Assembly (NCBI RefSeq): GCF_018390605.1
Contig: NZ_JAHBGD010000002.1
Span: 62,001-126,000, forward strand
Reading direction: 5' to 3'
Source: Ancylobacter defluvii
Lineage (GTDB): Bacteria; Pseudomonadota; Alphaproteobacteria; Rhizobiales; Xanthobacteraceae
Length of the DNA: 64,000 bases
Below the pieces are notes generated by a model. The model was not told the origin of the DNA. It worked only from the letters and a program-made list of their open reading frames with translations, and ran no database searches. Position 1 is the first letter of the stretch. Each line of letters starts with the position of its first letter. The position numbers and the translations under genes were made by a program. Shown in pieces: positions 3,872 to 54,978 of the stretch.

Positions 3872-4816
3872 ATGACGCGGCGCAAGATCATCATCGACAC
3901 CGACCCCGGCCAGGACGACGCCTTCGCGCTGCTGCTGGCGCTCGGCTCGCCCGACGAGCTGGAGGTGGTCGGCGTCACCGCCGTGCACGGCAATGTGCCG
4001 CTCGCCCGCACCACCATCAACGCGCAGATGGTGATCGAGCTGGCCGGACGCGCCGATATCCCGGTCTATCCCGGCTGCCCGCGGCCGATGGTGAAGCCCG
4101 GCTTCACCGCCGAATATGTGCACGGGCCGAGCGGCCTCGACGGCTGCGAGCTGCCGCCGCCCTCGGCACCGCTCGGCGACCGCCACGGCGTCGACTTCAT
4201 CATCGACACGGTGATGGCGGCGGCGCCCGGAGAAATTTCGGTCTGCACGCTCGGACCGATGACCAATCTCGCGGTGGCGATGATCAAGGAACCGGCGATC
4301 ATCCCGCGTCTCGCCGAGGTGGTGTTCATGGGCGGCGGCTTCTTCGAGGGCGGCAACACCACCCCGGCGGCCGAGTTCAACATCTATGTCGATCCGCATG
4401 CCGCGCATGTGGTGCTGGCCTCCGGCGCGCCGGTGACGATGGTGCCGATCGACCTCACCTACAAGGCGGTGATGACGCCGGAATGGCTGCGGCGCCTGCG
4501 CGCCGTCGGCAAGCGCACCGCCGTCGAGGCGGCCGGCATGGCCGAGTTCTACCAGGACTACGGCAACAAGAAATTCGGCACCGACAGCTACCCGCTGCAC
4601 GACCCCTGCGTGATCGGCTACCTGCTGCGCCCGGACCTGTTCCAGGGCCGCAAATGCCATGTCGAGGTGGAGATCCATTCGCCGGTCACCTCCGGGATGA
4701 CGGTGGTGGACTGGTGGAACGTCACCAAGAAGCCGGCCAACTGCCTGGTGCTGCGCGACCTCGACAATCCGCCCTTCTACGAGCTGATGCTGGAGCGCAT
4801 TGCGCGACTGCCGTGA
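3872..4816 (+). CDS. Nucleoside hydrolase (IunH/Rih family)
   Basis: Cytosolic N-ribohydrolase, 314 aa, cleaving the N-glycosidic bond of ribonucleosides to base plus ribose. The Ca2+/catalytic aspartate cluster is at the very N-terminus (IIIDTDPGQDDAFALLLAL, Asp 9, 11, 15, 16). The family's second landmarks follow: LGPMTNLA near residue 127, FMGGGFFEGGNTTPAAEFN near 150-170, and the active-site His in YPLHDPCVIGYLL near 245. An AAGGGA site lies 8 bp before ATG 3872. It is transcribed away from the Liv transporter and converges on the cupin gene. The family is certain; purine versus pyrimidine specificity cannot be called from the sequence. Confidence 0.93.
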   Translation: MTRRKIIIDTDPGQDDAFALLLALGSPDELEVVGVTAVHGNVPLARTTINAQMVIELAGRADIPVYPGCPRPMVKPGFTAEYVHGPSGLDGCELPPPSAPLGDRHGVDFIIDTVMAAAPGEISVCTLGPMTNLAVAMIKEPAIIPRLAEVVFMGGGFFEGGNTTPAAEFNIYVDPHAAHVVLASGAPVTMVPIDLTYKAVMTPEWLRRLRAVGKRTAVEAAGMAEFYQDYGNKKFGTDSYPLHDPCVIGYLLRPDLFQGRKCHVEVEIHSPVTSGMTVVDWWNVTKKPANCLVLRDLDNPPFYELMLERIARLP

Positions 4817-36658: not shown

Positions 36659-37909
36659 TCAGTCCCTCTCGTCTTTCTCCGGCACTTCACCGGCGGCGAT
36701 ATCGCTGCGCCGGCCGACAGCGTGCGGACCATCCTCGTCCTTAGCCATGCTGCGGATACGTTGGCCGATGTCCGGGTGATGACGAATAACCTCGGCCAGA
36801 TCCTCGGCATCGAGCGCCAGCAGCATGCAGCGTCGCCGGGCACGGGCGGTGGCGGCGCGGCGGGCATTGTGCAGCAGCGCCATTTCGCCGAAGAACTGCC
36901 CGGTGCCGAGCACCGCCGTCTCGTCGCCGAATTCCAGCTCCACCTCGCCCGAAGCGATGAAATACATCGAGCGGGCCGGCTCGCCGCGCCGGGCGATGAT
37001 CTCCCCCGGCTGCGCCGTGTGTGCGGACAGCGCCTTATGAATCTCGCCAATGGCGGCGGCGTCGAGATCGGCGAACAGGGGCACGCGTGCCACCATGCCC
37101 CAGGTGATCACGAAATCCCGCCGCTTGATGACGTCGACGAAGGCGGTGGCGATGATACCGACCGGCAGCGCGATCATGATGATGCCGGTGAGCATGGTAA
37201 GCCCCGCTATCATGCGCCCGGCTGGCGTGATGGGATAAACGTCGCCATAACCGACCGTCGTTACCGTCGACATGGCCCACCACATCGCCTGGGGGATCGA
37301 CCCCATATGGTCCGGCTGGACGCTGCCCTCGGCGACATACATCGCCGAGGCGGCGATGAGAACCGCCGCCACCAACAGCCACAGGCAGGCGAGCAGCGAT
37401 TGCCGCTCCGAGCGCAGCACTTCGAAAAGAGATTGCATGCCAGATGAATAGCGGGCGAGCTTCACAAATCTCATCAAGCGCAGGATCGCCAGCGTGCGCA
37501 GATTGACGCCCCACAATGCTGAAAGGACGAAGGGCAGCCACGCCGCCAGGTCGACCAGTGCCGGCAGGGAGCGTGCATAGCGCAGGCGGGCCGTGCGATG
37601 GCGCAGGCCGCGATAGCGGGGGTCCTCCGGCGCGATCCATAGCCGCAGCCCGTACTCCGCCGCGAAAGCTATCAGGGAAAAGGTCTCGAAGCCGTGCAAC
37701 AGCACGGTGTCGCGTAACAACAGGCTCGGCACGGTTTCCAGCACCGCCGCGACCACATTGGCCAGCACTAGGCCGATCAGCGCTGCATTGACCCAGCGAC
37801 CTATCCGATCCTCCGAGGCGTTCCCTTCCAGCACCTCGTAAAGCCGACGCCGCAAGCCGCGGCGCCCGGCGCTCGACAACCAGCCGCCATGCTGCCCGCG
37901 GGATGCCAT
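36659..37909 (-). CDS. Cyclic-nucleotide-gated potassium channel (MlotiK1-like)
   Basis: 416 aa from ATG 37909 (MASRGQHGGWLSSAG). Six membrane segments precede a pore: S1-S4-like helices around ALIGLVLANVVAAVLE to RLMRFVKLARYSSG, then the selectivity filter TVGYGDVYPITP with its pore helix WWAMSTVT, and S6 LTGIIMIALPVGIIATAF. The C-terminal cyclic-nucleotide-binding domain (residues about 285-390) has the phosphate-binding cassette FFGEMALLHNARRAATA, including the Glu and Arg that contact cAMP. It likely passes K+ when cAMP is bound. Longer than MloK1 (355 aa) by an N-terminal region. Alone between icd and alaS; the native role of the whole family is unknown. Confidence 0.9.
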   Translation of the reverse strand: MASRGQHGGWLSSAGRRGLRRRLYEVLEGNASEDRIGRWVNAALIGLVLANVVAAVLETVPSLLLRDTVLLHGFETFSLIAFAAEYGLRLWIAPEDPRYRGLRHRTARLRYARSLPALVDLAAWLPFVLSALWGVNLRTLAILRLMRFVKLARYSSGMQSLFEVLRSERQSLLACLWLLVAAVLIAASAMYVAEGSVQPDHMGSIPQAMWWAMSTVTTVGYGDVYPITPAGRMIAGLTMLTGIIMIALPVGIIATAFVDVIKRRDFVITWGMVARVPLFADLDAAAIGEIHKALSAHTAQPGEIIARRGEPARSMYFIASGEVELEFGDETAVLGTGQFFGEMALLHNARRAATARARRRCMLLALDAEDLAEVIRHHPDIGQRIRSMAKDEDGPHAVGRRSDIAAGEVPEKDERD

Positions 37910-37943
37910 GATGTCAGGTCCACTCCCCGAGAGACTGTTTGAA

Positions 37944-37963
37944 CCACCGCGCCGAGGCGGTGG
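37944..37963 (-). terminator. Hairpin after alaS
   Basis: CCACCGC ... GCGGTGG 7-bp perfect stem with a 6-base loop, followed on the minus strand by TTCAAACAG. It lies between alaS and the channel gene, both on the minus strand. Confidence 0.5.
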
Positions 37964-37970
37964 GCACCCG

Positions 37971-40622
37971 TCAGCCGGCGAGCGCCGCCTCGATGGCCTC
38001 CAGCGCCGCCGACGCATTGGCCCCGTCCGGTCCGCCGGCCTGCGCCATGTCGGCCCGGCCGCCGCCGCCCTTGCCGCCCAGCGCCTCGGCGCCCCGGCGC
38101 ACCAGGGCCACCGCGTCGTAGCGATCGGTCAGATCCGGCGTCACCCCGACCACCAACCCGGCGCGCCCTTCCTCGGTGACAGCGACGATCGCCACGATGC
38201 CGGAGCCGAGCCGCTTCTTGCCTTCGTCGGCGAGGCTCTTGAGATCCTTGAGATCGATGCCGGAGACCTGCCTGGCCAGCAGCTTGACGGAGCCGACCGT
38301 GCGGGCCGGCTCCTCGGCCGCCTCGCCGCCCCCCATCGCCAGGCGACGGCGCGCCTCGGCAAGCTCGCGCTCCAGCTTGCGCCGCTCCTCGACAAGCTGG
38401 GCGACACGCGCCTCGACCTCGCCGACCGGCGCCTTCAGCACCGCCGCCGTGGCCTGCAGCGCCTTGCCCTGCGCATCGAGATGGTGGCGCGCCGCATCCG
38501 CGGTCATCGCCTCGAGGCGCCGCACGCCCGCGCCAACCGCGCTCTCACCCAGCACGGTGACAAGGCCGACATCGCCGGTGCGGCCGACATGGATGCCGCC
38601 ACACAATTCGATCGAATAGGGCGCGCCATTGCCGGGATCGGTCCCCATCGAGACCACCCGCACCTCATCGCCGTATTTTTCGCCGAACAGCGCGCGGGCG
38701 CCGGAGGCGATCGCATCGTCGACCGCCATCAGCCGCGTCTCGACCGGCTCGTTGCGCAGGATCACCGCATTGGCGATGTCGGAGACCTCCGCGATCTCCG
38801 CTTCGCTCATTGGCTTGGGATGGCTGAAGTCGAAACGCAGGCGATCCGGCCCCACCATCGAGCCCTTCTGCGCGACATGGTCGCCGAGCACCCGCCGCAG
38901 CGCCTCATGGAGCAGATGAGTCGCCGAATGGTTGGCGCGAATGGCGCGGCGGCGGGCGTGATCGACCTCCAGCGCCAGCGCCATGCCGAGCGTCAGCGTA
39001 CCGCTCTCCACCTCCACCTCATGGACGAACACGTCGCCAAGCTTCTTCTGCGTGTCGAGCACCCGCGCCTTCACGCCGCCCTCGCCGGTGAGGAGGCCGG
39101 TATCGCCGAGCTGTCCGCCGGATTCGCCGTAGAACGGCGTCTGGTTGAGAACCAAAAGGCCGCGCCCGCCGGCACCGATTTCCGAGACCTCGATGCCATC
39201 GGCCAGCAAGGCGACGACCGATCCTTCAGCGATCTCGGTGCCATAGCCGAGAAATTCGGTAGCCCCCACCTTCTCGCGGATGCCGAACCAGACGGCATCG
39301 GTCGCCGCCTCGCCCGAACCCGACCACGAGGCCCGTGCGTCGGCCCGCTGGCGCTCCATGGCGGTGTCGAACGCCGCCGTATCGACGCTTATGCCGCGGG
39401 CGCGCAGCGCGTCCTCGGTCAGGTCGAGCGGAAAGCCAAAGGTGTCGTAAAGCTTGAAGGCGGTCTCGCCGGAGAACTTGGCACCGTCGCCCAGTCCCTC
39501 GCTCTCCGCCTCCAGGATCGACAGGCCACGTTCCAGCGTCTTGCGGAAGCGTGTCTCCTCGAGGCGCAGGGTTTCGGTGACCAGCGCCTCGGCGCGCACG
39601 ATCTCGGGATAGGCGCGCCCCATCTCGCGCACCAGCACCGGCACCAGCCGATGCATCAGCGGATCGCGGGCACCAAGCAGCTGGGCATGGCGCATCGCCC
39701 GGCGCATGATGCGGCGCAGAACATAGCCACGCCCCTCATTCGAGGGCAGCACGCCATCGGCTACCAGGAAGGTCGAGGCGCGCAAATGATCGGCGATGAC
39801 CCGATGGCTCGCCTTCTGCGGACCGTCGGCGGTGACGTCCGTGAGATCCTCGACCGCGCCGGTCAGCGCGCGCATCAGGTCGATCTCATAATTGTCATGC
39901 GTGCCCTGCAGCACCGCCGAGATGCGCTCCAGCCCCATGCCGGTATCGATCGAGGGCCGTGGCAGGTTGATCCGCTCGCCGCCCGGCAGTTGCTCGAACT
40001 GCATGAAGACGAGGTTCCAGATCTCGATGAAGCGGTCGCCATCCGCATCCGCCGAGCCGGGCGGACCGCCCGCAATGTGCGAACCGTGGTCGTAGAATAT
40101 CTCGGAACAGGGACCGCAGGGGCCGGTATCGCCCATCTGCCAGAAATTGTCCGAGGTCGGGATGCGGATGATCTTGCTGTCCGGCAGGCCGGCAATCTTC
40201 TTCCACAGGTCGAACGCCTCGTCGTCCTCGTGGTACACCGTCACCAGCAGCTTCTCGACGGGGAGCTCGAACTCGCGGGTGATCAGGTTCCAGGCGAACT
40301 CGATGGCATTCTCCTTGAAGTAATCGCCGAAGGAGAAATTGCCGAGCATCTCGAAGAAGGTATGGTGCCGGGCGGTGTAGCCGACATTATCGAGATCGTT
40401 GTGCTTGCCGCCGGCACGCACGCATTTCTGCGACGTCGCCGCCCGCGAATAGGGCCGCTTCTCCATCCCGGTGAAGACGTTCTTGAACTGCACCATTCCG
40501 GCATTGGTGAACATCAATGTCGGGTCGTTGCGCGGTACGAGCGGCGACGAGTCCACTACCTGATGACCGTTCTTCGCGAAATAATCGAGGAAGGCCGACC
40601 TGATCTCGTTGACGCCGCTCAT
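37971..40622 (-). CDS. alaS: Alanyl-tRNA synthetase
   Basis: 883 aa from ATG 40622, the normal length. It charges tRNA-Ala and hydrolyses mischarged Ser/Gly. Class II catalytic motifs start with [20 protein letters not shown] and [13 protein letters not shown] (motif 1-2 region). The editing domain has the zinc ligands [11 protein letters not shown] and [12 protein letters not shown] near residues 560-670, and the C-terminal C-Ala domain follows, ending [15 protein letters not shown]. The 209-bp gap to recA upstream shows no T-box, as expected outside Firmicutes. Adjacent to recA and close to icd, matching common alphaproteobacterial synteny. Confidence 0.97.
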
Positions 40623-40831
40623 CGAACACTGCCTGTAGAAAATAGACCACCGGCAGTTCCGCCGGCCCGCGCCGGAACAGCGCGAGCCCCGGTTCTAACG
40701 ACGCCGCAATAGCTTGTCCAGAAAGGCCGCGCGCCAAGCCCGCCTTGTCAACGACCAGGCCGTCATCTACCGGGAAGGCAGACGACCACCCGATGCGCGA
40801 AACCGCCCCGACCGTCTTCAGATGGACACCC

Positions 40832-43833: not shown

Positions 43834-44101
43834 GCTCGACCTGCCAGGCGCTGCCGAGGCGGCCGGACATGCTCCGCGTCGCAGGGATGACGAACGGCAA
43901 GATGGCGCATCACTTCCTCGAACCGGGAGCCGCGAAGCATGATGGAAAGGGTCGTCGGCAGCGGGCAAGCCCGCACTATGCCACGATCATCGATTTTTCT
44001 GCCGTGCTCGTCGAGTGGCCGCACGCCGACCGCTGACCTTGTCGTGGCCTCATGCCATCCCTTTCCCCAGCGCAATAGGCAGCGGGCACGGAGAGAAGGG
44101 C

Positions 44102-47100
44102 ATGGCAGGCATTTCCCCATCCGAGACGGAACGGCTTGTCACGCACGCCGCCGCACCCGGCATCGCCGCAGCGGGACGCATCCTCTCCGCCGACCTGCCC
44201 ACGAGCGGGACGCAGCGCATCATCCAGGACTTCGATCCGACCCGCGACAAGCTCGACCTTGGCGCCAACTCGGTCCATGCCTTCATCGTGGTCGACACGC
44301 CGGAAGGGGTGGCGTTCCGGGATCCGTGGAGCGGCCGGGAGGTGCTGATCGCCGGGATCTCGCTGGGCCAGCTCACGGTGGACAGCTTCGTGCCGGTGGA
44401 AAACGACCATCTCCGCCAGGATCTGAGCGGCGCCCTGGCCTGGGAGCACGGCATCCAAGCCGCGCCGCACACCGTCTATGCCCGTTCGCACGAAATCGGC
44501 CAGATCGACCGTGTCGCCTTCGATCCGCAAACCGACACCATCTACGGCACGCGCGAACAGATCTTCATGGTCGACAGCGCCGAAGGCGTGGTCATCGGCA
44601 ACTACACCACCGGCCAGGCGCTGATCCTGCTCAACGCTAAGGTGGCGGAGCTGTCGATCGACAATTTCGTGTTCCACAACGCGCAGGCGAAAGAAGACTG
44701 CCTGTGGTTGCAGCTCGGCTTCACCGCGATCCCGGAGTCGCAGATCCGCAGCCGTGCCGACATTCCCACCGCTGGCACCAATGCGTGGCCGACCGAAGCC
44801 GGTCCCGGCGATCCGCCCTCGGGGGAGGCCGGCACCACCTTTCTGATCGACTGGGACCACAGCAGCCACGTCGTGCTGGACTTCGACCCGGCCACCGACC
44901 GGCTCGACTTCAACTATTTTCGCCCGAACGGATTCACCGTTGCCGAGGCCGGCGGCTCGGTGGTGATCGCCATCGTCGGGCAGAACCAGAGCTATACGCT
45001 GGATGGCGTGGCGTTGGCGGAGCTCGATTACAACAACATCGTTGCCGTCGAGGACGCGACCTACCAGACCTGGCTCGCGCTCATCGACGAGGCGCGCAAC
45101 GATGCGCCACAGGCGGCGATCCCCGTCTTGTCGGTCGCCGATGCACAGGTCACCGAAGGCCAGTCTGGCGCAGGCATGCTGATGTTCACGGTGAGCCTGT
45201 CGGCGGCGGCGGCCGGCGTGGTGACGGTGGACTATGCGACGCTGAACGGCACCGCACAGGCGGGCTCGGACTACCAGGCGGCGCTCGGCACCCTCACCTT
45301 CCAGCCCGGCGAGACCTCGAAGATGGTGCATGTCGCCATCAATGGCGACACGACGTTCGAAAGCGATGAAACATTCCAGCTTGTGCTCTCCTCGCCGGCC
45401 GGCGCCGCGCTCGGCGACGGCAGCGCGGCCGGCACCATCCGTAATGACGACGCCACGCCGGCCGGCCGGCCACTGATCCGCGTGGGCGACGTCACGGTCG
45501 CAGAGGGGGACGATGGCGAACCGCACATGATGTTCCCCATCACGCTTTCCTTCGCGTCCGATACGCCGGTCAGCGTACGCTATTTGACGCGCGACGATGC
45601 CGCGAAAGCCGGCAGCGACTATGAGGCGATGTCCGGCACGGTGACCTTCGCGCCGGGACAGACCGTGGCCCATGTCCACGTGCCACTGATCGGCAACCGG
45701 ACGGTCGAAGCCGACGAGCGCTTCTATCTCCTGCTCGGCCATGCCAATGGCGGTACGATCGTCGATGGCATCGGGCAGGGGTTCATCACCAATGACGACG
45801 CCGTCACGCCTCCTCCCTCCGGCAGCGGCGACGAGGTGATTTTCACGGTGACCGACGACTGGACATCCGGCTTCACCGGCGCGATGACCTTGATGCCGGA
45901 GGACACGCTCAACGGCTGGACGGTCGAATTCGACGCGCCATTCGCCATCGGCAACATCTGGAACGCCGAGATCGTCAGCCATGTCGGCGATCACTATGTG
46001 GTCCGCAACGCTTCCTGGAACGGCAAGGTCGCGGCGGATGGCGCTGTGACATTCGGCTTCCAGGCCGCGCCCGGCGGCGCCAGCACGGCGGCCACTGGCT
46101 TCATCGTCAACGGCGTTTCCACCGGCGAGCCAAAACCGGAGCCGGAACTACCCATGCTTGCCGTCGCCGATACGCAGGTGAGCGAGGGCGACAGCGGCAT
46201 GGCGCATCTCACCTTTACCGTCAGCTTGTCGGAAGCCTCGACCTCGGCAGTGACCGTCCGCTACGCCACGGCCAACGCCAGCGCGACGGCCGGCAGCGAC
46301 TATTCCCCGCTCTCCGGCAGCCTCACCTTTGCGCCGGGCGAATTCACCAAGACAATCCATGTGATGGTCAATGGTGACACGCTTGTCGAGGCCAACGAGA
46401 CCCTGGCGCTCACCCTCTCCGATGCGACCGGCGCCACCATCGCCGACGCGCGGGCCACCGGCACCATCCGCAACGACGACGTGGCGGCGCCGGTGCCGAA
46501 GCCGGTCGTGTCGGTGTCCAATGTGTCGGTGACCGAAGGCGATCCGGGAACCGGCTCGGCCGCAGATGGCTGGTTCTCCACCTCCGGCAACCAGATCGTC
46601 GATTCCGCCGGCAATCCGGTGAAGATCGCCGGCGTGAACTGGTTCGGCTTCGAATCCACCAATGCCTCGCCGCATGGCGTGTGGACGCGCGGCTATCAGG
46701 ACATGATGGACCAGATGAAGGATCTGGGCTTCAACACCGTCCGCCTGCCCTTCTCCACCGACACGCTGCACGCCAGCAGCGCCGCCGGCATCGACTACGG
46801 CCAGAATCCGGAATTCCAGGGCCTGACGCCGCTGCAGATCATGGACAAGGTGGTCGAATATGCCGGCGATATCGGCCTGAAGGTGATCCTCGACCATCAT
46901 CGCTCCGGCTTCGGCGCCGGCGCGTCGGAGAATGGCCTGTGGTACGACAGCGCCCATCCGGAATCTCAGTGGATCGCCGATTGGCAGATGCTGGCCGAGC
47001 GCTATGCCGACGACCCCACCGTCATCGGCGCCGATCTGCACAATGAGCCGCATGCCGGCACCTGGGGCGGCGGCGGCGCCAATGATTGGGCGGCGGCAGC

Positions 47101-48997
47101 CGAGCGCGCCGGCAATGCCATCGGCGCGGTGAATGACAACTGGCTGATCTTCGTCGAAGGCGTCGGTTCCTATCAGGGCGAGAATTACTGGTGGGGCGGC
47201 AACCTCATGGGTGTGCGCGACCGCCCCATCGAGCTCGACGTGCCGAACAAGCTCGTCTACTCGCCGCATGACTACGGCAATTCGGTATATGCGCAGCCCT
47301 GGTTCCAGGGCTCGGACTTCGCCGCGGATCTGCCGGCGAAGTTCGACGAGATGTGGGGCTACATCTACCGGGAGGGCATCGCGCCGGTCTACATCGGCGA
47401 GTTCGGCACCCGGCTGCAGGACCCGAAGGACGCGCCCTGGCTGGAGGCGCTCACTTCCTACATGTCCGGCGACTTCGACAATGACGGCGCCCTCGACATC
47501 CCGGCGGACGAAGAGGGGATGAGCTGGACCTACTGGTCGTGGAATCCCAACTCCACCGATACCGGCGGCATCCTCAAGGATGACTGGCGCACGGTTCACA
47601 CCGACAAGCTCGCCTATCTCGAGCCGATCCAGTTCGATTTCGACGATGGCGTCTCCACCGACGCAACCTACGCGGTGTTCATGGTGGCCCTCTCGGAGGC
47701 TTCCACCGAAGCCGTCACGGTGGGCTTCCACACCATGGCCGGCTCCGCCGACGCCAGCGATTTCACAGCGGTCAGCGGCACGCTTACCTTCCAGCCGGGC
47801 GAAACCTCGAAGCTCATTCGCGTTCCCGTCACTCCCGAAACGCAGGGCGAGCCGGACGAGCAATTCACCCTGATGCTCACCGATGCCGACGGCGCGGTGA
47901 TCGGTGTCGCGGAGGGCGTCGCGACCATCGTCGACGACGACAAGGCGGTGCCGATCATGCCCAGCCTCAGCATCGCCGATGCGCGGGTGGAGGAAGGCCA
48001 TGCCGGACAGAGCGGACAGCTCGCCTTTACCGTGACGCTGTCAGCGCCGGCCACCGAGACGGTAACGGTCGGCTATCGCACGGTGGACGGCACCGCGGTC
48101 GCCGGGCAGGACTACACGCCGACTACAGGGTCCCTCACCATCGCCGCCGGGCAGACCACCGCGACCATCCATGTGCCGATCATCGGCGAAAACGCGGTGG
48201 AAACCGACGAGCGCCTCACCGTCGTGCTCACAAACGCGGTCGGGGCGACCCTCGGCGATGCTCAGGCGATCGGCACCCTCGTCAATGACGATGCCGCCGT
48301 GCCTCCGCCCTCCGGCGGCGGCGATGAACTCGTCTACACCGTGACCGACGACTGGACATCCGGCTTCACCGGCGCGATGACCCTGAACGCCGACGACGCC
48401 TTGAACGGCTGGGTGGTGGAATTCGAGGCGCCATTCGACATCACCAACATCTGGAACGCCGAGATCGTCAGCCATGTCGGCGATCATTATGTCATCCGCA
48501 ATGCGAGCTGGAACGGCAAGGTGGCGGCGGATGGCCAAGTGTCGTTCGGCTTCCAGGCCTCGCCGGGCGGCGCCAGCACGACGGCGTCGGATTTCGTCGT
48601 AAATGGCGAACCGGTGGGCGGCTCTGAGCCGCTGGCGCGGATGGTGGCGCTCGCCGAACCGGCTGACGACGAGGCCTCGCTGGAGAGCGGGGCCGGCCTG
48701 TTATTCGACGACGTGCTGACCCCGATGCTGTCGGATGTCACGACCTCCGAGGACGGCTTCAATGTTGAAGTGACGATCCACAACGACGGCGACGCCGCCA
48801 AGGGCTGGACGGTCGAGATCGGCACGCCCTTCGAGATCACCGAGGTGAGCAACGCCGAGATCATTGCTCGCACAGAGGATGGCTACATCATCGGCGGCAT
48901 CGGCGAGAGCAGCGCAGTCGGCGGGAAGGACGACATTACCTTCGAGATCGCCGGCCACGGCGTGTTCACCGCATCGCAGTTCGACCTTCTGATCTAG
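44102..48997 (+). CDS. Giant type-I-secreted protein: GH5 endoglucanase-type domain nested in Calx-beta, with CBM2 modules
   Basis: 1631 aa from ATG 44102, chosen for the GGAGAGAAGG site. No Sec signal peptide. Residues 40-325: three repeats of a 'DFDP..D.LDLG ... GV' module, related in wording to the serralysin/RTX C-terminal motif. Calx-beta domains lie at about 341-450, 458-567, 684-793, 801-820 plus 1186-1281 (split), and 1287-1397. CBM2 modules lie at about 576-672 and 1407-1503; a degenerate CBM2-like end spans 1540-1631. The GH5 domain (822-1175) has its acid/base Glu982 in LHNEPH and nucleophile Glu1100 in VYIGEFGT, so it is probably an active endo-beta-1,4-glucanase. No GGxGxD RTX repeats. 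Probably exported by the T1SS directly downstream. Confidence 0.85.
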   Translation: MAGISPSETERLVTHAAAPGIAAAGRILSADLPTSGTQRIIQDFDPTRDKLDLGANSVHAFIVVDTPEGVAFRDPWSGREVLIAGISLGQLTVDSFVPVENDHLRQDLSGALAWEHGIQAAPHTVYARSHEIGQIDRVAFDPQTDTIYGTREQIFMVDSAEGVVIGNYTTGQALILLNAKVAELSIDNFVFHNAQAKEDCLWLQLGFTAIPESQIRSRADIPTAGTNAWPTEAGPGDPPSGEAGTTFLIDWDHSSHVVLDFDPATDRLDFNYFRPNGFTVAEAGGSVVIAIVGQNQSYTLDGVALAELDYNNIVAVEDATYQTWLALIDEARNDAPQAAIPVLSVADAQVTEGQSGAGMLMFTVSLSAAAAGVVTVDYATLNGTAQAGSDYQAALGTLTFQPGETSKMVHVAINGDTTFESDETFQLVLSSPAGAALGDGSAAGTIRNDDATPAGRPLIRVGDVTVAEGDDGEPHMMFPITLSFASDTPVSVRYLTRDDAAKAGSDYEAMSGTVTFAPGQTVAHVHVPLIGNRTVEADERFYLLLGHANGGTIVDGIGQGFITNDDAVTPPPSGSGDEVIFTVTDDWTSGFTGAMTLMPEDTLNGWTVEFDAPFAIGNIWNAEIVSHVGDHYVVRNASWNGKVAADGAVTFGFQAAPGGASTAATGFIVNGVSTGEPKPEPELPMLAVADTQVSEGDSGMAHLTFTVSLSEASTSAVTVRYATANASATAGSDYSPLSGSLTFAPGEFTKTIHVMVNGDTLVEANETLALTLSDATGATIADARATGTIRNDDVAAPVPKPVVSVSNVSVTEGDPGTGSAADGWFSTSGNQIVDSAGNPVKIAGVNWFGFESTNASPHGVWTRGYQDMMDQMKDLGFNTVRLPFSTDTLHASSAAGIDYGQNPEFQGLTPLQIMDKVVEYAGDIGLKVILDHHRSGFGAGASENGLWYDSAHPESQWIADWQMLAERYADDPTVIGADLHNEPHAGTWGGGGANDWAAAAERAGNAIGAVNDNWLIFVEGVGSYQGENYWWGGNLMGVRDRPIELDVPNKLVYSPHDYGNSVYAQPWFQGSDFAADLPAKFDEMWGYIYREGIAPVYIGEFGTRLQDPKDAPWLEALTSYMSGDFDNDGALDIPADEEGMSWTYWSWNPNSTDTGGILKDDWRTVHTDKLAYLEPIQFDFDDGVSTDATYAVFMVALSEASTEAVTVGFHTMAGSADASDFTAVSGTLTFQPGETSKLIRVPVTPETQGEPDEQFTLMLTDADGAVIGVAEGVATIVDDDKAVPIMPSLSIADARVEEGHAGQSGQLAFTVTLSAPATETVTVGYRTVDGTAVAGQDYTPTTGSLTIAAGQTTATIHVPIIGENAVETDERLTVVLTNAVGATLGDAQAIGTLVNDDAAVPPPSGGGDELVYTVTDDWTSGFTGAMTLNADDALNGWVVEFEAPFDITNIWNAEIVSHVGDHYVIRNASWNGKVAADGQVSFGFQASPGGASTTASDFVVNGEPVGGSEPLARMVALAEPADDEASLESGAGLLFDDVLTPMLSDVTTSEDGFNVEVTIHNDGDAAKGWTVEIGTPFEITEVSNAEIIARTEDGYIIGGIGESSAVGGKDDITFEIAGHGVFTASQFDLLI

Positions 48998-49085
48998 AGC
49001 CTGCCCGAACCGCTTCAATTCCCATCGATCGGTCACATTGCCCGCTCGATGGTCGCCAGATGCCGACGGCCGTAACGCCCCCGCA

Positions 49086-49125
49086 TCCGCCCTGCCCCGC
49101 CCGCCTCCGCCCTGCCCCGCCCGCC
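49086..49125. repeat. Tandem repeat of a 20-bp unit, two exact copies
   Basis: The unit begins TCCGCCCTGCC and ends CCGCCCGCC; the two copies are adjacent and identical, and a third copy begins but diverges after TCCG. It lies in the 190-bp gap between the cellulase gene and the ABC exporter gene. It is not CRISPR-like (no spacers). Confidence 0.7.
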
Positions 49126-49187
49126 TCCGCGACCGGCGCGAGCCGCGTCCCGCTTTCCGCTGCCGGCTCGCAGCCGTAAGGTCTCCC

Positions 49188-50927
49188 GTGACGCACCGAT
49201 CCGCCACCCCCTCCTCGGCCTCCATCGTCGGACGGGCTTTGTCGACCTGCCGCGGTGCCTTCGCGGTGGTCGGAATGTTCTCCGCCGTCATCAACGTGCT
49301 GATGCTGTCGGGCTCACTGTACATGTTGCAGGTCTACGACCGGGTGCTGAGCTCGCGCAGCGTCGAGACCCTGATCGGGCTCTCTCTGCTGCTTCTGGCC
49401 GCCTACGCGCTTCAGGGGGTTCTGGATGCGATCCGCGTCAGGATGCTGGCGCGCATCGGCGCCCGCTTCGACGAGCAGGTGTCGCCTGCCGCCTTCGATG
49501 CGGTGCAGCGGCTTCCCCTGCTCGGTTGGCGGTCCGATCAATCGCTCCAGCCCATCCGTGACCTCGATCAGATACGCGGCTTTCTCTCGTCGCTGGGGCC
49601 GACGGCACTGTTCGACATGCCGTGGATGCCGCTGTTCTTTGCCGGCTGCTTTTTGCTGCATCCCTGGCTGGGCTGGCTGGCGCTGTCGGGCGGGGCGCTC
49701 ATCCTCCTGCTGACCGCGCTGACCGAGTTCGGCAGTCGCGCCGCCACGAAGGCGCAGCTGTCAAGCCGCCTCAGCCGTGATGCGGTGGTGGAAGCCAGCT
49801 GGCGCAATGCCGAGGCGCTCGCCGCCATGGGCATGGCCGCGTCCTTCCGGGACAAATGGCAAGACGCCAATCGGCACCACGTGCGCGACTGGCTCGCCGG
49901 CGCCGATCTCACCGGTTCTGCCGGCGCGGTGGCGAAGATCCTGCGCATGGCATTGCAATCGGCGGTGCTCGGGCTCGGCGCCTATCTCGCCATACGGGGC
50001 GAGATTTCCGGCGGTGCCATGATCGCCGCCTCGATCATGACCTCACGCGCCTTGGCGCCGATCGAGATCGCCGTCGCCAACTGGAAGGGCTTCGTCGGCG
50101 CCCGGCAGGGCGTCGCACGGCTACGGCAGATTCTGGACATGCCCGCCTTCGCGCGACGCGAGCGCACAACCCTGCCGGCGCCGTGCCGCCAGGTGACTGT
50201 GGAGAATGTCGTCGTCGCGGCGCCCGGACGCCAGGCGCCGATCCTGCAAGGGGTCGCGCTTCGGCTGGAATCCGGGCAGGGCCTCGGCATCATCGGCCCC
50301 AGCGCATCCGGCAAGTCGACGCTGGCGCGCGCGCTGGTCGGCGTCTGGCAGCCGCTCAAGGGGGAGGTGCGTATCGACGGCGCCGCCCTCGACCATTGGG
50401 ACCCCGCCGAGCTGGGCCGCCATATCGGCTATCTGCCGCAGGACGTCGAATTGCTCGACGGCACCGTCGCCGAGAACATCGCCCGTTTTGCCCCCGACGC
50501 AACCGACGAGGCCCTCGTCGCGGCGGCGTTGGCGGCAGGGGCGCATGAATTGATCCTTCGGTTGGAAAAGGGCTACCACACCCGCATCGGCGAGAATGGC
50601 GCCATGCTTTCCGCCGGCCAGCGCCAGCGCATCGGGCTGGCACGGGCACTCTATCGCGATCCGTTTCTGGTCGTGCTCGACGAACCGAACTCCAATCTCG
50701 ACACCGATGGCGACGAGGCGTTGACCACCGCCATTACCGGCATCCGTGCGCGGGGCGGCATCGTGGTGGTGGTCACTCACCGGCAGGCGGCGATCGCCGG
50801 GGTCGAACAGATCGCCATGATGGCGGACGGGCGCCTTCAAGCGATCGGGCCAAAGGACCAGATCCTTCAGAGAATGGCCAAGCAGGGTGGCCTGCCGAGC
50901 ATCCGACGCCCGGCGGTGGCATCATGA
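49188..50927 (+). CDS. Type I secretion ABC transporter (PrtD-like)
   Basis: 579 aa starting at GTG 49188 behind TAAGG (MTHRSATPSSASIVGR). An in-frame extension to 49038 is Pro/Arg-rich and rejected. Membrane domain about 25-300 (GMFSAVINVLMLSGSLYML, MPWMPLFFAGCFLLHPWLGW), then an ATPase with Walker A GPSASGKST near 370, signature LSAGQRQRIGLARAL near 474 and Walker B FLVVLDEPNSNLD near 500. It lacks the N-terminal C39 peptidase domain, as in PrtD rather than HlyB/bacteriocin exporters. It follows the cellulase gene and overlaps the fusion-protein gene by 4 bp. It likely exports the 1631-aa protein. Confidence 0.92.
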   Translation: MTHRSATPSSASIVGRALSTCRGAFAVVGMFSAVINVLMLSGSLYMLQVYDRVLSSRSVETLIGLSLLLLAAYALQGVLDAIRVRMLARIGARFDEQVSPAAFDAVQRLPLLGWRSDQSLQPIRDLDQIRGFLSSLGPTALFDMPWMPLFFAGCFLLHPWLGWLALSGGALILLLTALTEFGSRAATKAQLSSRLSRDAVVEASWRNAEALAAMGMAASFRDKWQDANRHHVRDWLAGADLTGSAGAVAKILRMALQSAVLGLGAYLAIRGEISGGAMIAASIMTSRALAPIEIAVANWKGFVGARQGVARLRQILDMPAFARRERTTLPAPCRQVTVENVVVAAPGRQAPILQGVALRLESGQGLGIIGPSASGKSTLARALVGVWQPLKGEVRIDGAALDHWDPAELGRHIGYLPQDVELLDGTVAENIARFAPDATDEALVAAALAAGAHELILRLEKGYHTRIGENGAMLSAGQRQRIGLARALYRDPFLVVLDEPNSNLDTDGDEALTTAITGIRARGGIVVVVTHRQAAIAGVEQIAMMADGRLQAIGPKDQILQRMAKQGGLPSIRRPAVAS

Positions 50928-52240
50928 CGGCCGAACTCCGCGTGGAACACGATGTCTGCCGCTCGCTCAAACGTCTCGCCGTGACAGGCGGGGGAGCGGT
51001 CCTGCTCTTTGCCGGCACCGTCGGCGTGTGGGCCATCACCACGACCCTGTCCGGTGCCGTGGTCGCTTCCGGCCAGTTCGTCGTCACCGGCAGCGTCAAG
51101 AAAGTCCAGCATCCCACCGGCGGCATCGTCGGGCAGCTCAATGTCCGCGAGGGCGACAAGGTCGAAAGCGGCGCCGTCGTCATCCGTCTCGACGACACGG
51201 TCACTCATGCCAATCTCCAGGTCGTCACCAAGCAACTCGACGAGCTGGCGGCGCGGCGTGGGCGCCTGAGGGCGGAGCGCGATGACCAGCAGGTCATTTC
51301 CATCGCGGCCGAACTGGCCGACCATACCGGGCAGGCGAACATTGCCGAACTGATCGCCGCGGAACAGCGCCTGTTCGACGCAAGGCGAGCCGCGCGCAGC
51401 GGACAGAAGGCTCAGCTCACCCGGCGCGTCGGCCAGCTGCGAGACGAGATCACCGGCCTGCGCGCCCAGCAGATCGCCAACGGTCAACAGGCCGAGCTGA
51501 TACGGGAGGAATTGAGCGGTGTGCGGGACCTCTATCGGCAGAAGCTGATCTCGATCAGCCGCAAATCCGTGCTGGAGCGTGAAGCCGCCGAGCTCGACGG
51601 CCAGAAGGGCCAGCTTCAGGCGGCGATAGCGCAGGCAGAAGGCAAGATCGCCGAGACCGAACTGCAGATGATCCAGATCGACGACGCGGTGCGCGAAGAG
51701 GTGATGAAGCAGTTGCAGGAGGCGGAGAGCAAGGCGGCCGAGCTCATGGAACGCCGCATCGCGGCCGAGGAAGAGCTGCGCCGCGTGGAAATCCGCGCAC
51801 CGGCTTCCGGCTATGTGCATCAGCTTGTGGTCCATACCGTCGGCGGCGTGCTCACGCCGGCCGAACCCGCGATGCTGATCGTCCCCGTCGAGGACACGCT
51901 GGAGATCGAGGCCCGCGTGAACCCTCCCGATATCGACCAGATCGCCCCGGGCCAAAGTGCGCATGTGAAGATCCATGCCTTCAACCAGCGCACCACTCCC
52001 GAACTGGCGGGCACCGTTTCGCGCATCGCAGCCGACACCAGCAGGGACGAGCGCACCGGCGCACCGTTCTATACGATCCGCGTCAGGCTTCCGGCCGACG
52101 AACTCGCGCGCATCGCCCCGCAGCGGGTCGCCGCCGGCATGCAGGCCGATGTCTTCGTGAGAACTGTCGACCGCACGCCGCTCGAATATGTCGTCAAGCC
52201 GCTGCTCGATCAGGTCGCCAAAGCGTTCCGCGAAAGATGA
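50924..52240 (+). CDS. Type I secretion membrane-fusion protein (HlyD/PrtE family)
   Basis: 438 aa. A single N-terminal transmembrane helix (residues about 20-42, LAVTGGGAVLLFAGTVGVWA) is followed by the barrel-lipoyl segment VKKVQHPTGGIVGQLNVREGD, then a long coiled coil from about 100 to 290 (heptad-rich, LTRRVGQLRDEITGLRAQQI), and the closing beta domain RIAADTSRDERTGAPFYTIRV. It bridges the ABC exporter and an outer-membrane TolC-type channel, which is not encoded here. Its ATG overlaps the stop of the ABC gene (ATGA). Converges with the DUF1501 gene. Confidence 0.93.
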   Translation: MTAELRVEHDVCRSLKRLAVTGGGAVLLFAGTVGVWAITTTLSGAVVASGQFVVTGSVKKVQHPTGGIVGQLNVREGDKVESGAVVIRLDDTVTHANLQVVTKQLDELAARRGRLRAERDDQQVISIAAELADHTGQANIAELIAAEQRLFDARRAARSGQKAQLTRRVGQLRDEITGLRAQQIANGQQAELIREELSGVRDLYRQKLISISRKSVLEREAAELDGQKGQLQAAIAQAEGKIAETELQMIQIDDAVREEVMKQLQEAESKAAELMERRIAAEEELRRVEIRAPASGYVHQLVVHTVGGVLTPAEPAMLIVPVEDTLEIEARVNPPDIDQIAPGQSAHVKIHAFNQRTTPELAGTVSRIAADTSRDERTGAPFYTIRVRLPADELARIAPQRVAAGMQADVFVRTVDRTPLEYVVKPLLDQVAKAFRER

Positions 52241-52285: not shown

Positions 52286-53509
52286 TCAGGCCACCAGGTC
52301 CTTGAGCGGTGCCAGCCCGGCAGTGTCGGGGAACACGTCGCGCGCGAGATAGCCGGCCGGAGCGCCGAACAGGTCGGCGAGAATGCCCTTGGCTACGCTG
52401 CGCACATCGGTGGTCGGACGAAGGTCACGCCCGTCCAGCAGCGCCGCGTCGGACAGGCCCGGCCAGTCGGCGATCACCCGGCCGCCGCGAATGGCGCCGC
52501 CCGCCAGCAGCACCACGGTGCCGGTGCCGTGGTCGGTCCCCCGCGTGCCGTTGATTCGGGCGGTGCGGCCGAATTCCGTCACCACCATCAGCGCGGTATC
52601 CTTCCATGTCGGCCCCAGCGTCTCGGCGAAAACGCCGATGGCGTCGTCGAGCCCGCGCAGGCGGTTGGCGAGTTGCCCTTTCACACCCCCCTCATTGGCG
52701 TGGGTGTCCCAGCCTTCGAAGGCGAGGCCGGCAATGCGCGGACCGTCCTCCTGCGCCAGCAGGCGAGCGGCGCCGAGCGCGGTCCGGCTCATGCCCTTCG
52801 GGTCCGACAGGCCGCCCTGGCGCCGGATCGCCGGCCCGTTCATGGCGATGAGATCCTCGGTCTTCAAACCCTCGATCAACATCCGATGCAAAGCGGGGTC
52901 CCGCTCGGCATAGAGCGCGGCGAGACGGTCGGCGAGGTCGTCGCCGGCCGGGGGCAATACCGCCGGGCTCCAGCCAAGCACCGGCGCCGGCCCGCGCACC
53001 ACCAGCGGCGCCACCGGCCCGACGCCGAGCGCCCCGGCCGGGGCGATGCGATCGCCGGCTGGCAGGCCGGCAAGGAAGCGGTTCAGCCAGCCGGTCTCGA
53101 TCTTCCCCGGCGCCGGCTGGCCGCTTTCCAACACGTCCTGGCCGTCGAAATGCGAGCGCTCGCGATAGCCGGTTGCCGCCGCGTGCACGACGCTGGCCTG
53201 CCCTGCCTTGTAGAGCCGGGCAAAGTTCGGCATCGAAGGATGGAGCGCGAAAAAGCCGTCGAGCGGCAGCGCCGGGATCTCGCCATCGAGCGAAAGCGCG
53301 AGGTCGCCATGCAGACCGGCATAGGCAGGATCGCCCACCGGCGCCACGGCGGCGAGCCCGTCCAGCGCGCCACGCAGCACGATGCAGACGAAACGCGCAT
53401 CCCGCCCACCCGCCGCACGGGCTATGCGCGGCATGAAGGCCCAGGCGAACAGGGCGCCGGAGGTGCCCAGCAACGCGCGACGGGAGAGCGAGGTCTCGCA
53501 GAGGTCCAT
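52286..53509 (-). CDS. DUF1501 family exported protein
   Basis: 407 aa from ATG 53509. The N-terminus is a probable Tat signal (SLSRRALLGTSGALFAWAFM, cleavage near IARA-AGGRD). The DUF1501 (sulfatase-like alkaline-phosphatase fold) landmarks are RFVCIVLRGALDGLAAVAPV, SMPNFARLYKAGQASVVHA, ESGQPAPGKIETGWLNRFL and TDHGTGTVVLLAGGAIRGG. The family is of unknown function and is nearly always paired with DUF1800, whose gene ends 2 bp upstream. Annotated as exported, perhaps a cell-surface or polymer-handling protein. Confidence 0.88.
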   Translation of the reverse strand: MDLCETSLSRRALLGTSGALFAWAFMPRIARAAGGRDARFVCIVLRGALDGLAAVAPVGDPAYAGLHGDLALSLDGEIPALPLDGFFALHPSMPNFARLYKAGQASVVHAAATGYRERSHFDGQDVLESGQPAPGKIETGWLNRFLAGLPAGDRIAPAGALGVGPVAPLVVRGPAPVLGWSPAVLPPAGDDLADRLAALYAERDPALHRMLIEGLKTEDLIAMNGPAIRRQGGLSDPKGMSRTALGAARLLAQEDGPRIAGLAFEGWDTHANEGGVKGQLANRLRGLDDAIGVFAETLGPTWKDTALMVVTEFGRTARINGTRGTDHGTGTVVLLAGGAIRGGRVIADWPGLSDAALLDGRDLRPTTDVRSVAKGILADLFGAPAGYLARDVFPDTAGLAPLKDLVA

Positions 53510-53511
53510 GG

Positions 53512-54978
53512 CTATCTCCTCTGGAATTCGGGCGACATCAGCAGCAGCGCGATAGCCTGCGGCCGGCTCTCGGCACGACGCACCGCCCGCAACGTCTCGT
53601 CCGAAATCGTGGCGCCGAAGGCGGCTTCGGCGAGCGCCAGCGGATCGGTGGCGCCGGCGGCCCGGCCGATCTGGTCGGCGACATCGAGGCGCGTCTTGAT
53701 GCCGGTCGGCGACAGCCATTCGTCGCTGCGGTCGGTGAAACCCTTCGGACTGCCGGGATTCCACATCGGCTGCCCCATGGCGATGAGCTGGCCCAGCGCC
53801 ATCTTCACCTGGTCCGGCTTGCCGGTCAGCCGCAGCGCGGCAAACAGGAACTCCTGCGGCGAGCGCAGCTTGCCGGCAGTTGCGTCCCATGCCTCGGGAG
53901 ATTCCACCAGCGCCCGGGCGAGTTGCTTCAGGTCGCCGCCGCTGGTGCGGAAGCTCGCCGCCAGCCGGGCGACCAGAGCTGGCGGCGGATCGTCGGCGAC
54001 GAAATACGTGGCGAACTTGCCGGCGATATGGCGGGCGGTGGCTGGATGCGCCGCCAGCGCCAGCAGCGCCGCCTCCCCCTGCTCGACGCCGCCTTCCGGA
54101 TAGACGCGGCCGAGCAGCGTCTGGTCGCCGGGCTCGTGGCGGATCGGTGCAAAGGTGAAGCTCCCGCCATGGAAGGCGTCCTCATCCGCCGACGCCACCG
54201 TCCAGCCGGTGAGGATACGGGCCAGCGACGTGACATCGGCCTGCGTATAGCCGCCATTGACGCCGAGCGTGTGCAGCTCCAGCATCTCGCGCGCCAGATT
54301 CTCGTTGAGGCCGCGCTTGTTCTTCAGCGCCGTGTTGGAGGTCGGGCCGATGGACTGGTTGTTGTCGAGGTAGAACAGCATCGCCGGGTGCTGCTCCACC
54401 GCCTTCAGCATGTCGGCGAAGCGACCGAGCACATGCGGGCGGATGGCCTCGCGTTCGAAGGCACCGGCGGTGATGCGCATCGGCGCATCCTTGAGCGCGA
54501 TGGCGAAGTGATTGGCCCAGAACAGGACAAGACGTTCGGTGAAGCCCACCGGCGCATCGTGCATGCGGACGAGCCGTGCCGCCACCTCCTGCTCGTAGAC
54601 CGGAGTGTCCGACGACCGGCCGGCGCCGCCGCCGGCCATCGACGGGGCCGCCGCGTCCATCGCCGAGCCGGTCGATCGCTCCATGCCCTGCCCTGGCCGC
54701 GCATCCGCAGGCAACGCCACCGCCATCGGCCCGGCGGCCTCCGGCCCCGTCTGCCGCTGCTGGCGGGCGCGGGTTACTGCGCGCTGATAGGCGGCGTTGC
54801 GGGCAAGCGCCTGCTGGCTGGTCGGCAGCTCGGGAATGTCCAACCGGGCGGTGGCGGGCCGTGCCAGATCTTCGACGAGCGCCCCGCGCGGGTCGGACCG
54901 GATATGGGCGAGGTCGCCGGGACGAGGACCGAGCCCGAAACGGCGAAGGGCGGTGAGCGCGGCGAGGTCGTCGGACAT
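53512..54978 (-). CDS. DUF1800 family protein
   Basis: 488 aa. The DUF1800 pattern opens LTALRRFGLGPRPGDLAHI, with the conserved core WANHFAIALKDAPM, NNQSIGP followed by LNENLAREMLELHTLGVNGG, the YTQADVTSLARILTGW block and later ESPEAW. A Gly/Pro/Ala-rich linker sits near residues 75-125. There is no evident signal peptide. It is translated just before DUF1501 in a tight two-gene minus-strand unit, the standard pairing in proteobacteria and planctomycetes. Function unknown; the pair may work together on an extracellular polymer. Confidence 0.9.
   Translation of the reverse strand: MSDDLAALTALRRFGLGPRPGDLAHIRSDPRGALVEDLARPATARLDIPELPTSQQALARNAAYQRAVTRARQQRQTGPEAAGPMAVALPADARPGQGMERSTGSAMDAAAPSMAGGGAGRSSDTPVYEQEVAARLVRMHDAPVGFTERLVLFWANHFAIALKDAPMRITAGAFEREAIRPHVLGRFADMLKAVEQHPAMLFYLDNNQSIGPTSNTALKNKRGLNENLAREMLELHTLGVNGGYTQADVTSLARILTGWTVASADEDAFHGGSFTFAPIRHEPGDQTLLGRVYPEGGVEQGEAALLALAAHPATARHIAGKFATYFVADDPPPALVARLAASFRTSGGDLKQLARALVESPEAWDATAGKLRSPQEFLFAALRLTGKPDQVKMALGQLIAMGQPMWNPGSPKGFTDRSDEWLSPTGIKTRLDVADQIGRAAGATDPLALAEAAFGATISDETLRAVRRAESRPQAIALLLMSPEFQRR

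Follow-up and report, generated by a model that had tools for sequence, protein, structure and literature searches.

Cellulases that carry a glycoside hydrolase family 5 (GH5) catalytic domain together with Calx-beta domains are a known type. The order 'GH_5 - CalX-beta' has appeared in the literature since 2011, written linearly and with no split mentioned in the available passages of the source (PMC3245306), and the title of Pimentel et al. 2023 on the endoglucanase CelE2, as given in a reference list, names GH5 and Calx-beta domains (PMC12120621). The same domains occur in Erwinia phage S6, where gp094 combines Calx-beta with GH48, and gp095, made up of choice-of-anchor D domains and GH5, degrades a cellulose model substrate; here too, the accessible parts of the source mention no split (PMC9544554). 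The locus described below lies in a window of 64,000 nucleotides (the whole stretch of Ancylobacter defluvii DNA that was analysed) and encodes a protein of the GH5 and Calx-beta type, in which the sequence places the enzyme inside one of the Calx-beta domains. Among titles, abstract openings and passages of the open-licence literature, no published description of a GH5 domain nested in, or interrupting, a Calx-beta domain was found.

The open reading frame (ORF) extends over 44015-48997 on the forward strand, and its start codon, an ATG at 44102 preceded by GGAGAGAAGG, gives a protein of 1631 residues. Pfam recognises one GH5 domain, five Calx-beta domains and two CBM2 stretches in it (Table 1), and these five Calx-beta matches are all that the genome contains. 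The Cellulase match (PF00150) covers residues 833-1151 and the full profile (1-272 of 272), with E = 6e-54 and 183.7 bits against a cut-off of 23.5. The borders from our own GH5 model, listed in Table 1, are close to the 46562-47626 given in a preliminary description of this DNA. That description also held that both catalytic glutamates are kept, and indeed Glu982 and Glu1100, which we take to be the catalytic residues, are present here and invariant in all 79 aligned rows.

The split Calx-beta copy

Pfam detects only the second half of the fourth Calx-beta copy, so the protein reads as a linear tandem of GH5 and Calx-beta. When the five copies are aligned, the fourth is complete only if residues 801-820, which stand before GH5, are joined to the part after it. 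A Calx hidden Markov model (HMM) of 110 positions, trained on 288 continuous copies with the post-GH5 copies outside the training set, starts at position 1 in copies 1, 2, 3 and 5 and at position 15 in the post-GH5 copy; because its training set came from continuous copies in the loci surveyed, the way the model was built accounts in part for their start at position 1. A linker-free strand-A profile of 13 residues, built from continuous copies only, finds hits at residues 341, 457, 684, 801 and 1287, scoring 23.6-34.5, and the next best 13-mer in the protein scores -7.0. The hit at 801 stands immediately before GH5 and corresponds to the orphaned first strand. The second half is matched by PF03160 above its cut-off of 27 bits (47.4 and 48.7 bits), although the Pfam borders are no guide to strand A because continuous copies also mostly start inside the profile (for example at positions 13-26).

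Structure models are consistent with this layout. The AlphaFold2 model built on the 79-row alignment (mean predicted local distance difference test score, pLDDT, 87) places strands at 2-5 and 8-11 ahead of GH5 and six more within 389-477 behind it; its linkers, 14-19 and 379-387, have pLDDT values below 50. In a second model that includes the neighbouring copies as context, the order A, A', B-G is identical in copies 3, 4 and 5, that is, in the split copy and in continuous ones. From models and profile together, the split copy has the full strand set, with A and A' before GH5 and B-G after it, and a putative pairing between them. Whole-model fold searches were dominated by GH5 matches.

The alignment, the Calx model, the strand-A profile and the strand order in the models thus all bear out the initial proposal that GH5 interrupts one Calx-beta domain, the four others being continuous. 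Together, the sequence comparisons establish, and the models support, the nesting of a GH5 endo-beta-1,4-glucanase-type domain within the A'-B loop of a Calx-beta sandwich; the strands on its two sides, six of them after GH5, make up one domain. It is very improbable that the first strand is instead completed by a neighbouring copy, through domain swapping along the Calx-beta array. The protein does contain four other copies, and the models give strand order rather than contacts, but the neighbouring copies have A strands of their own in both sequence and model, and several mycobacterial members end with the split copy, which only a few residues follow.

Table 1. Features of the split-domain protein and of two neighbouring genes, in window coordinates.
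Feature	Position	Strand	Residues	Basis
Multidomain endoglucanase-type protein, 1631 aa, probably secreted	44102..48997	+		ORF and Pfam
Calx-beta copy 1, continuous	45122..45451	+	341-450	Copy alignment and Calx model
Calx-beta copy 2, continuous	45470..45799	+	457-566	Copy alignment and Calx model
CBM2-type module, flanked by continuous Calx-beta copies	45818..46120	+	about 573-673	Pfam
Calx-beta copy 3, continuous	46151..46480	+	684-793	
Split copy 4, strands A/A'; Glu812 at 46535-46537	46502..46561	+	801-820	Alignment, models, strand-A profile
Inserted GH5 catalytic domain; Glu982 at 47045-47047, Glu1100 at 47399-47401	46565..47635	+	822-1178	
Split copy 4, strands B-G	47657..47941	+	1186-1280	Pfam, Calx model, structure models
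Calx-beta copy 5, continuous	47960..48292	+	1287-1397	Calx model, context structure model
CBM2 module	48332..48610	+	1411-1503	Pfam
ABC transporter, type I secretion kind	49038..50927	+		
HlyD-family membrane fusion protein	50924..52240	+		

Outside these modules, the N-terminal 340 residues (44102-45121) show repeats of the FDPxxDKLDLG type by eye and have no Pfam match at 0.01. The last 90 or so residues (48700-48997), ending in FTASQFDLLI, resemble, by eye, a degenerate third CBM2-type module. Elsewhere in the window, two long ORFs (37908-40712 and 52529-54103) have no Pfam match at 1e-5 and may not be genes.

Relatives of the nested cellulase

Among 248 genomes of the family, 27 contain a match: 20, including the window itself, span both halves, six match in GH5 only (38-40% identity) and one is a fragment. 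A match is also present in 53 plasmid records, 19 of them with at least 80% query coverage. A further 80 loci (L033-L112) from Ancylobacter, Xanthobacter, Reyranella, Azorhizobium, Roseomonas, Mycobacterium and others are the best 80 of at least 593, obtained with a query that held both halves and therefore favours the split state. The nested layout occurs across Alphaproteobacteria and Mycobacteriaceae, which answers the search for the same split elsewhere that the preliminary description had proposed as a check, alongside structure prediction, where split and continuous copies gave the same predicted strand order.

In the 80 loci, three plasmid loci and the window, all 83 Calx-beta copies directly after GH5 start at model position 7-20 and lack the first strand. 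Among the other copies of this set, 290 of 294 start at position 1-3 and four are without a first strand, one of these being the broken-off post-GH5 half of L041. A strand-A motif stands upstream of GH5 in 84 of 84 GH5 domains of the same set. Scoring of the 79 alignment rows had left 14 below the highest shuffled score, ascribed to rows that start at residue 2-3, and all rows were rescored with 45 residues of upstream context. GH5 rows that have the second half (109, of which 96 are distinct) all score at least -1.1 for strand A, and 108 score at least 16; of the 20 rows without it, 19 score -14.8 or less. The exception is L041, with its broken frame, whose second piece is too short to score. 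The halves are thus present or absent jointly, which points to their coordinated gain and loss. The raw pattern table holds 108 rows with both halves, 18 with neither and 2 + 2 mixed, the mixed cases being the two pieces of L041, L134, whose strand A has diverged, and L132, read as a pattern hit by chance, with a profile score of -26.5. Left out were L008, L014 and L022 from set A1, and L041 and L095 from set A2.

In L041 itself (Reyranella soli), the ORF is broken inside GH5, and the rest of GH5 and the Calx-beta half lie in a separate open stretch downstream.

This coordination bears on a simpler account, in which the resemblance of the pre-GH5 segment to strand A is that of a mere linker, the Calx-beta domain after GH5 folds alone and the protein is a linear tandem. 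Pfam detection of the second half only agrees with that account, as does the published order (PMC3245306, the part consulted). So does a joined-HMM test: when the pre-GH5 segment with linkers was joined to the second half, the Calx score rose in only 34 of 79 rows, no better than with a shuffled segment, although the alignment then reached back to model position 1 in 33 of the 79 joined rows and in 3 of 79 shuffled ones. The HMM scan of the split domain, also proposed at the outset, gave a divided answer: the late start of the second half and the orphan strand A were found, and a gain in score over shuffled segments was not. A linear tandem is nevertheless improbable, given a strand-A motif with an invariant Glu, its presence and absence in step with the second half, and the strands that the models predict in the pre-GH5 segment.

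Nesting is not universal among the nearest enzymes. A GH5-only query matched 4 of 398 and 7 of 385 genomes, and its matches with at least 50% identity comprise three split proteins (the window, L124 and L125) and three unsplit ones (L126-L128). At about 50-61% identity, GH5 relatives stand beside Calx-beta without being nested (L126-L128) or have no Calx-beta half (L113, L114); in L126, GH5 comes after an intact Calx-beta copy and no second half follows. Neither half is present in two Azospirillum paralogues, which are neighbours of split relatives in the GH5 tree (support 98). That tree holds 115 distinct GH5 domains, 96 of them split, in a set obtained largely with queries favouring the split (L041, rows shorter than 300 residues and identical rows were left out). 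It needs 4 state changes, compared with 17.8 after shuffling, and at least two are required by branches with good support; being a quick tree with long branches, midpoint-rooted for drawing, it does not fix the number of gains and losses. Within this GH5 lineage, nesting is the common state among the relatives obtained. Since unsplit relatives exist, nesting is not essential to the enzyme, and GH5, judged from these sequences, does not seem to need the clamp proposed below.

Two loci show further arrangements. In L176 (G945), a GH5 domain of 61% identity follows an intact Calx-beta copy and precedes RTX-like repeats, without nesting. The mycobacterial L069 has, besides its nested GH5, a GH18-type match between continuous Calx-beta copies, not inside one.

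A wider survey covered 165 Calx-beta copies in 63 ORFs from 60 regions of Pseudomonadota, chosen among the matches listed. Fourteen copies started at model position 9 or later, and 13 of these were read by eye. No insertion in a Calx-beta loop was seen among the 165, four of which could not be judged (L185, where the frame breaks; L196, L199 and the first copy of L224, where the ORF or contig ends). The arrangement had been called uncommon in the preliminary description. This stands for the sampled Calx-beta domains of Pseudomonadota, and does not for the present GH5 lineage, where it is the common state in a set obtained largely with queries that favour it.

Calcium, export and a proposed clamp

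Acidic positions of the split copy are treated here as counterparts of the Ca2+ ligands of NCX1. In the split copies, Glu812 and Asp1220 are each found in 79 of 79 rows, Asp at 1246 in 78, Glu1250 in 77 and Glu1253 in 78; in the continuous copies, the same five positions are kept in 288, 287, 281, 283 and 286 of 288. The window copy has E812, D1220, E1250, E1253 and D1278-1280, and the terminal Asp pair is frequently absent in mycobacterial rows. Because GH5 separates one ligand-type residue, on its N-terminal side, from the others on its C-terminal side, the putative site would be assembled only once the two halves come together.

The route out of the cell may differ between members. Genes for an ABC transporter and an HlyD-family protein lie directly downstream of the window gene, and relatives of both are found within flanks of up to 7 kb in 6 of 83 loci; mycobacterial members start instead, by eye, with a signal-peptide-like sequence. 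RTX repeats are a common but not universal mark of type I secretion substrates. The window protein has no Pfam match to HemolysinCabind (RTX), of which a Roseibium relative has 15 stretches. With the adjacent genes but no RTX match, the protein may be exported by a type I route, and no more than that.

The preliminary description suggested Ca2+-dependent assembly after secretion, which is plausible from the sequence. The conserved ligand-type residues on both sides of the insert and the adjacent ABC and HlyD genes speak for it; the Glu at 1246, the signal-peptide-like starts of the mycobacterial members and the crystallisation of a CelE2 GH5 construct without the Calx-beta half weigh against it. 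Once outside the cell, the two halves would come together around the Ca2+ end of the sandwich, with GH5 held by a pair of short tethers, which measure 8-18 residues before GH5 and 6-23 after it (medians of 12 on each side). Such a clamp would fix the enzyme near the array of Calx-beta and CBM2 modules and hide both ends of GH5 from proteases, with Ca2+ stabilising the clamp rather than serving as an on-switch for the enzyme. Closure in the Ca2+-rich exterior would be possible under either export path. A single origin of the nesting, or a few, is probable, with spread between Alphaproteobacteria and Mycobacteriaceae and a few reversals.

A neutral origin would need no such function: GH5 may have landed in an insert-tolerant loop, both halves being kept because a broken Calx-beta domain would misfold. 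The persistence of unsplit relatives (L126-L128, L113-L114) fits such a relic, as do linkers that vary more than the enzyme (mean pairwise identity 0.45 and 0.30, against 0.73 for GH5). Long retention across two phyla does not, nor does the absence of any other insertion in the 165 sampled copies, which indicates that the loop was not promiscuous in that sample. A relic is a genuine possibility, with the odds leaning against it.

Taken as a whole, nesting with an extracellular clamp and one or few origins is the best explanation, with a probability of roughly 0.8. Several points count against it. To the neutral joined-HMM score and the unsplit relatives must be added that GH5 is poorly folded in the context model (whole-model mean pLDDT, 69), that the strand evidence from the models consists of DSSP strings and so concerns strand order rather than contacts between strands, and that at residue 1246, which is Asp in 78 of 79 rows, the window copy has Glu. 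The roles of tethers and clamp are inferred.

The practical consequences begin with cloning. Constructs cut at the Pfam border deprive the Calx-beta domain of its first strand, and tests of its role in cellulases that use them may be misleading. If the halves close only outside the cell, the arrangement would amount to a simple Ca2+-tunable enzyme clamp.

Phage tail genes and other comparable systems

Phage GH5 proteins first surfaced in a fold search among viral proteins. A tblastn search of phages with the split region gave 34 records, of which 25 have at least 80% coverage. The match crosses from one gene into the next in 19 of the 25, all of them Erwinia phages, and is confined to a single gene in the other six, which are Klebsiella phages. 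Two genes were read in each of 12 phages, some of them near-identical (such as Fifi287 and Kuerle in gene 2). Gene 1, with GH5 at its end, stops 2-4 residues past GH5 in 11 of the 12 and continues for 214 in Parlo. Gene 2 starts 9-81 nt later in all 12 and carries Calx-beta from model position 13-20, at or just before strand B, followed by GH48 in S6 and pEp_SNUABM_01 (the two Erwinia phages scanned). Six of the 12 have an orphan strand-A motif in gene 1, with scores of 11.5-22.9 that are reached by 0-2 of 2000 shuffles; in Fifi287 and Kuerle, a strand-A counterpart aligned without being significant, and Pavtok, Stean, PEp14 and Parlo have no motif in gene 1. In gene 2, strand-A hits scored 4.5 at best, none of note, so there is no chain of donors there.

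IMG/VR added 22 loci, several identical to phages already read. In 20 of them, the GH5 ORF is followed by a separate ORF with a strand-A-less Calx-beta domain, at a distance of about 0.6 kb in L253; in the remaining two, GH5 is cut off by the contig end. At E 1e-3, no Calx-beta domain is present within any of the 35 phage GH5 ORFs (L239-L273, redundancy included). An 8-residue strand-A pattern, of which 0.02-0.31 hits are expected per ORF, occurs outside GH5 in 15 of the 35, in tandem in seven. Single hits are not significant by pattern alone (chance 0.10-0.18), and a few, among them those at residue 89 of L267, 65 of L244 and 205 of L272, look like chance. L267, on a 360-kb contig, has three tandem motifs at 455, 475 and 494, about 20 residues apart and directly before GH5 at 514. 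Nine further gene-2 proteins comprise three with GH48 (L253, L270 and L271), five with Calx-beta only and one with nothing.

Some details of these loci may be added. The L267 motifs span residues 455-508 of the ORF segment from nt 1911, and the Calx-beta half lies in the next ORF. Further ORFs with a strand-A-less Calx-beta domain near their start are found in the same phages (L249, L250, L258, L262 and others). In Klebsiella phage ZX1 (L242, 4271-4800), an open frame from 4283, just after the GH5 gene, has such a domain near its start; the tail fibre gene annotated in that frame begins only at 4793, a start that may have been placed too late.

Docking by strand donation would explain these orphan halves. 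A GH5 tail protein with one to three orphan strand-A motifs might complete the strand-A-less Calx-beta domain of the next tail gene product, and sometimes of further ones, and thereby dock GH48 or other tail enzymes; the nested bacterial cellulase would be its one-chain version, or its source. This is advanced tentatively, at somewhat less than even odds. Against it, 20 of the 35 GH5 ORFs have no pattern anywhere, most of them with an acceptor adjacent, and ligand positions are eroded, by eye, in some gene-2 copies. If true, the phage pairs would represent a new way of assembling multi-enzyme tails and explain some of the tail enzymes that begin with a truncated Calx-beta domain, and it is this arrangement that would surprise a specialist.

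Solved structures offer partial counterparts. The nearest chains to the window GH5 are CelE2 and Acidothermus E1. The metagenome-derived CelE2 (PDB 8fc0) is 66% identical in GH5 over 363 aligned residues, and its 381-aa construct begins with strand-A sequence, without the other Calx-beta half. Chain C has 364 residues and its match starts at residue 17, so that by count the strand-A segment is unmodelled there; the other seven chains have 346-362 residues. The E1 endoglucanase (PDB 1ece), which we take to be a GH5_1 enzyme, was deposited as the catalytic domain alone (358 residues), without Calx-beta sequence. NCX1 CBD1 (3gin), the comparison for the Calx-beta domain and its putative Ca2+ site, has to our knowledge no enzyme inserted.

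Pilins of chaperone-usher pili, which are unrelated proteins, have an Ig-like fold and an N-terminal extension that acts as donor. In their donor-strand complementation, the missing strand comes from elsewhere in the sequence or from another protein, as proposed here; the likeness is one of analogy, not of membership. Erwinia phage S6 pairs a related GH5 in gp095 with the same B-G half of Calx-beta in gp094, and thus distributes over two proteins what the window protein holds in one chain. A further counterpart is the cellulase type of PMC3245306, whose Azospirillum plasmid members (L031, L134-L138) span both halves, as does the window protein. The latter is a conserved variant of the known GH5 and Calx-beta cellulase type, not a singular case.
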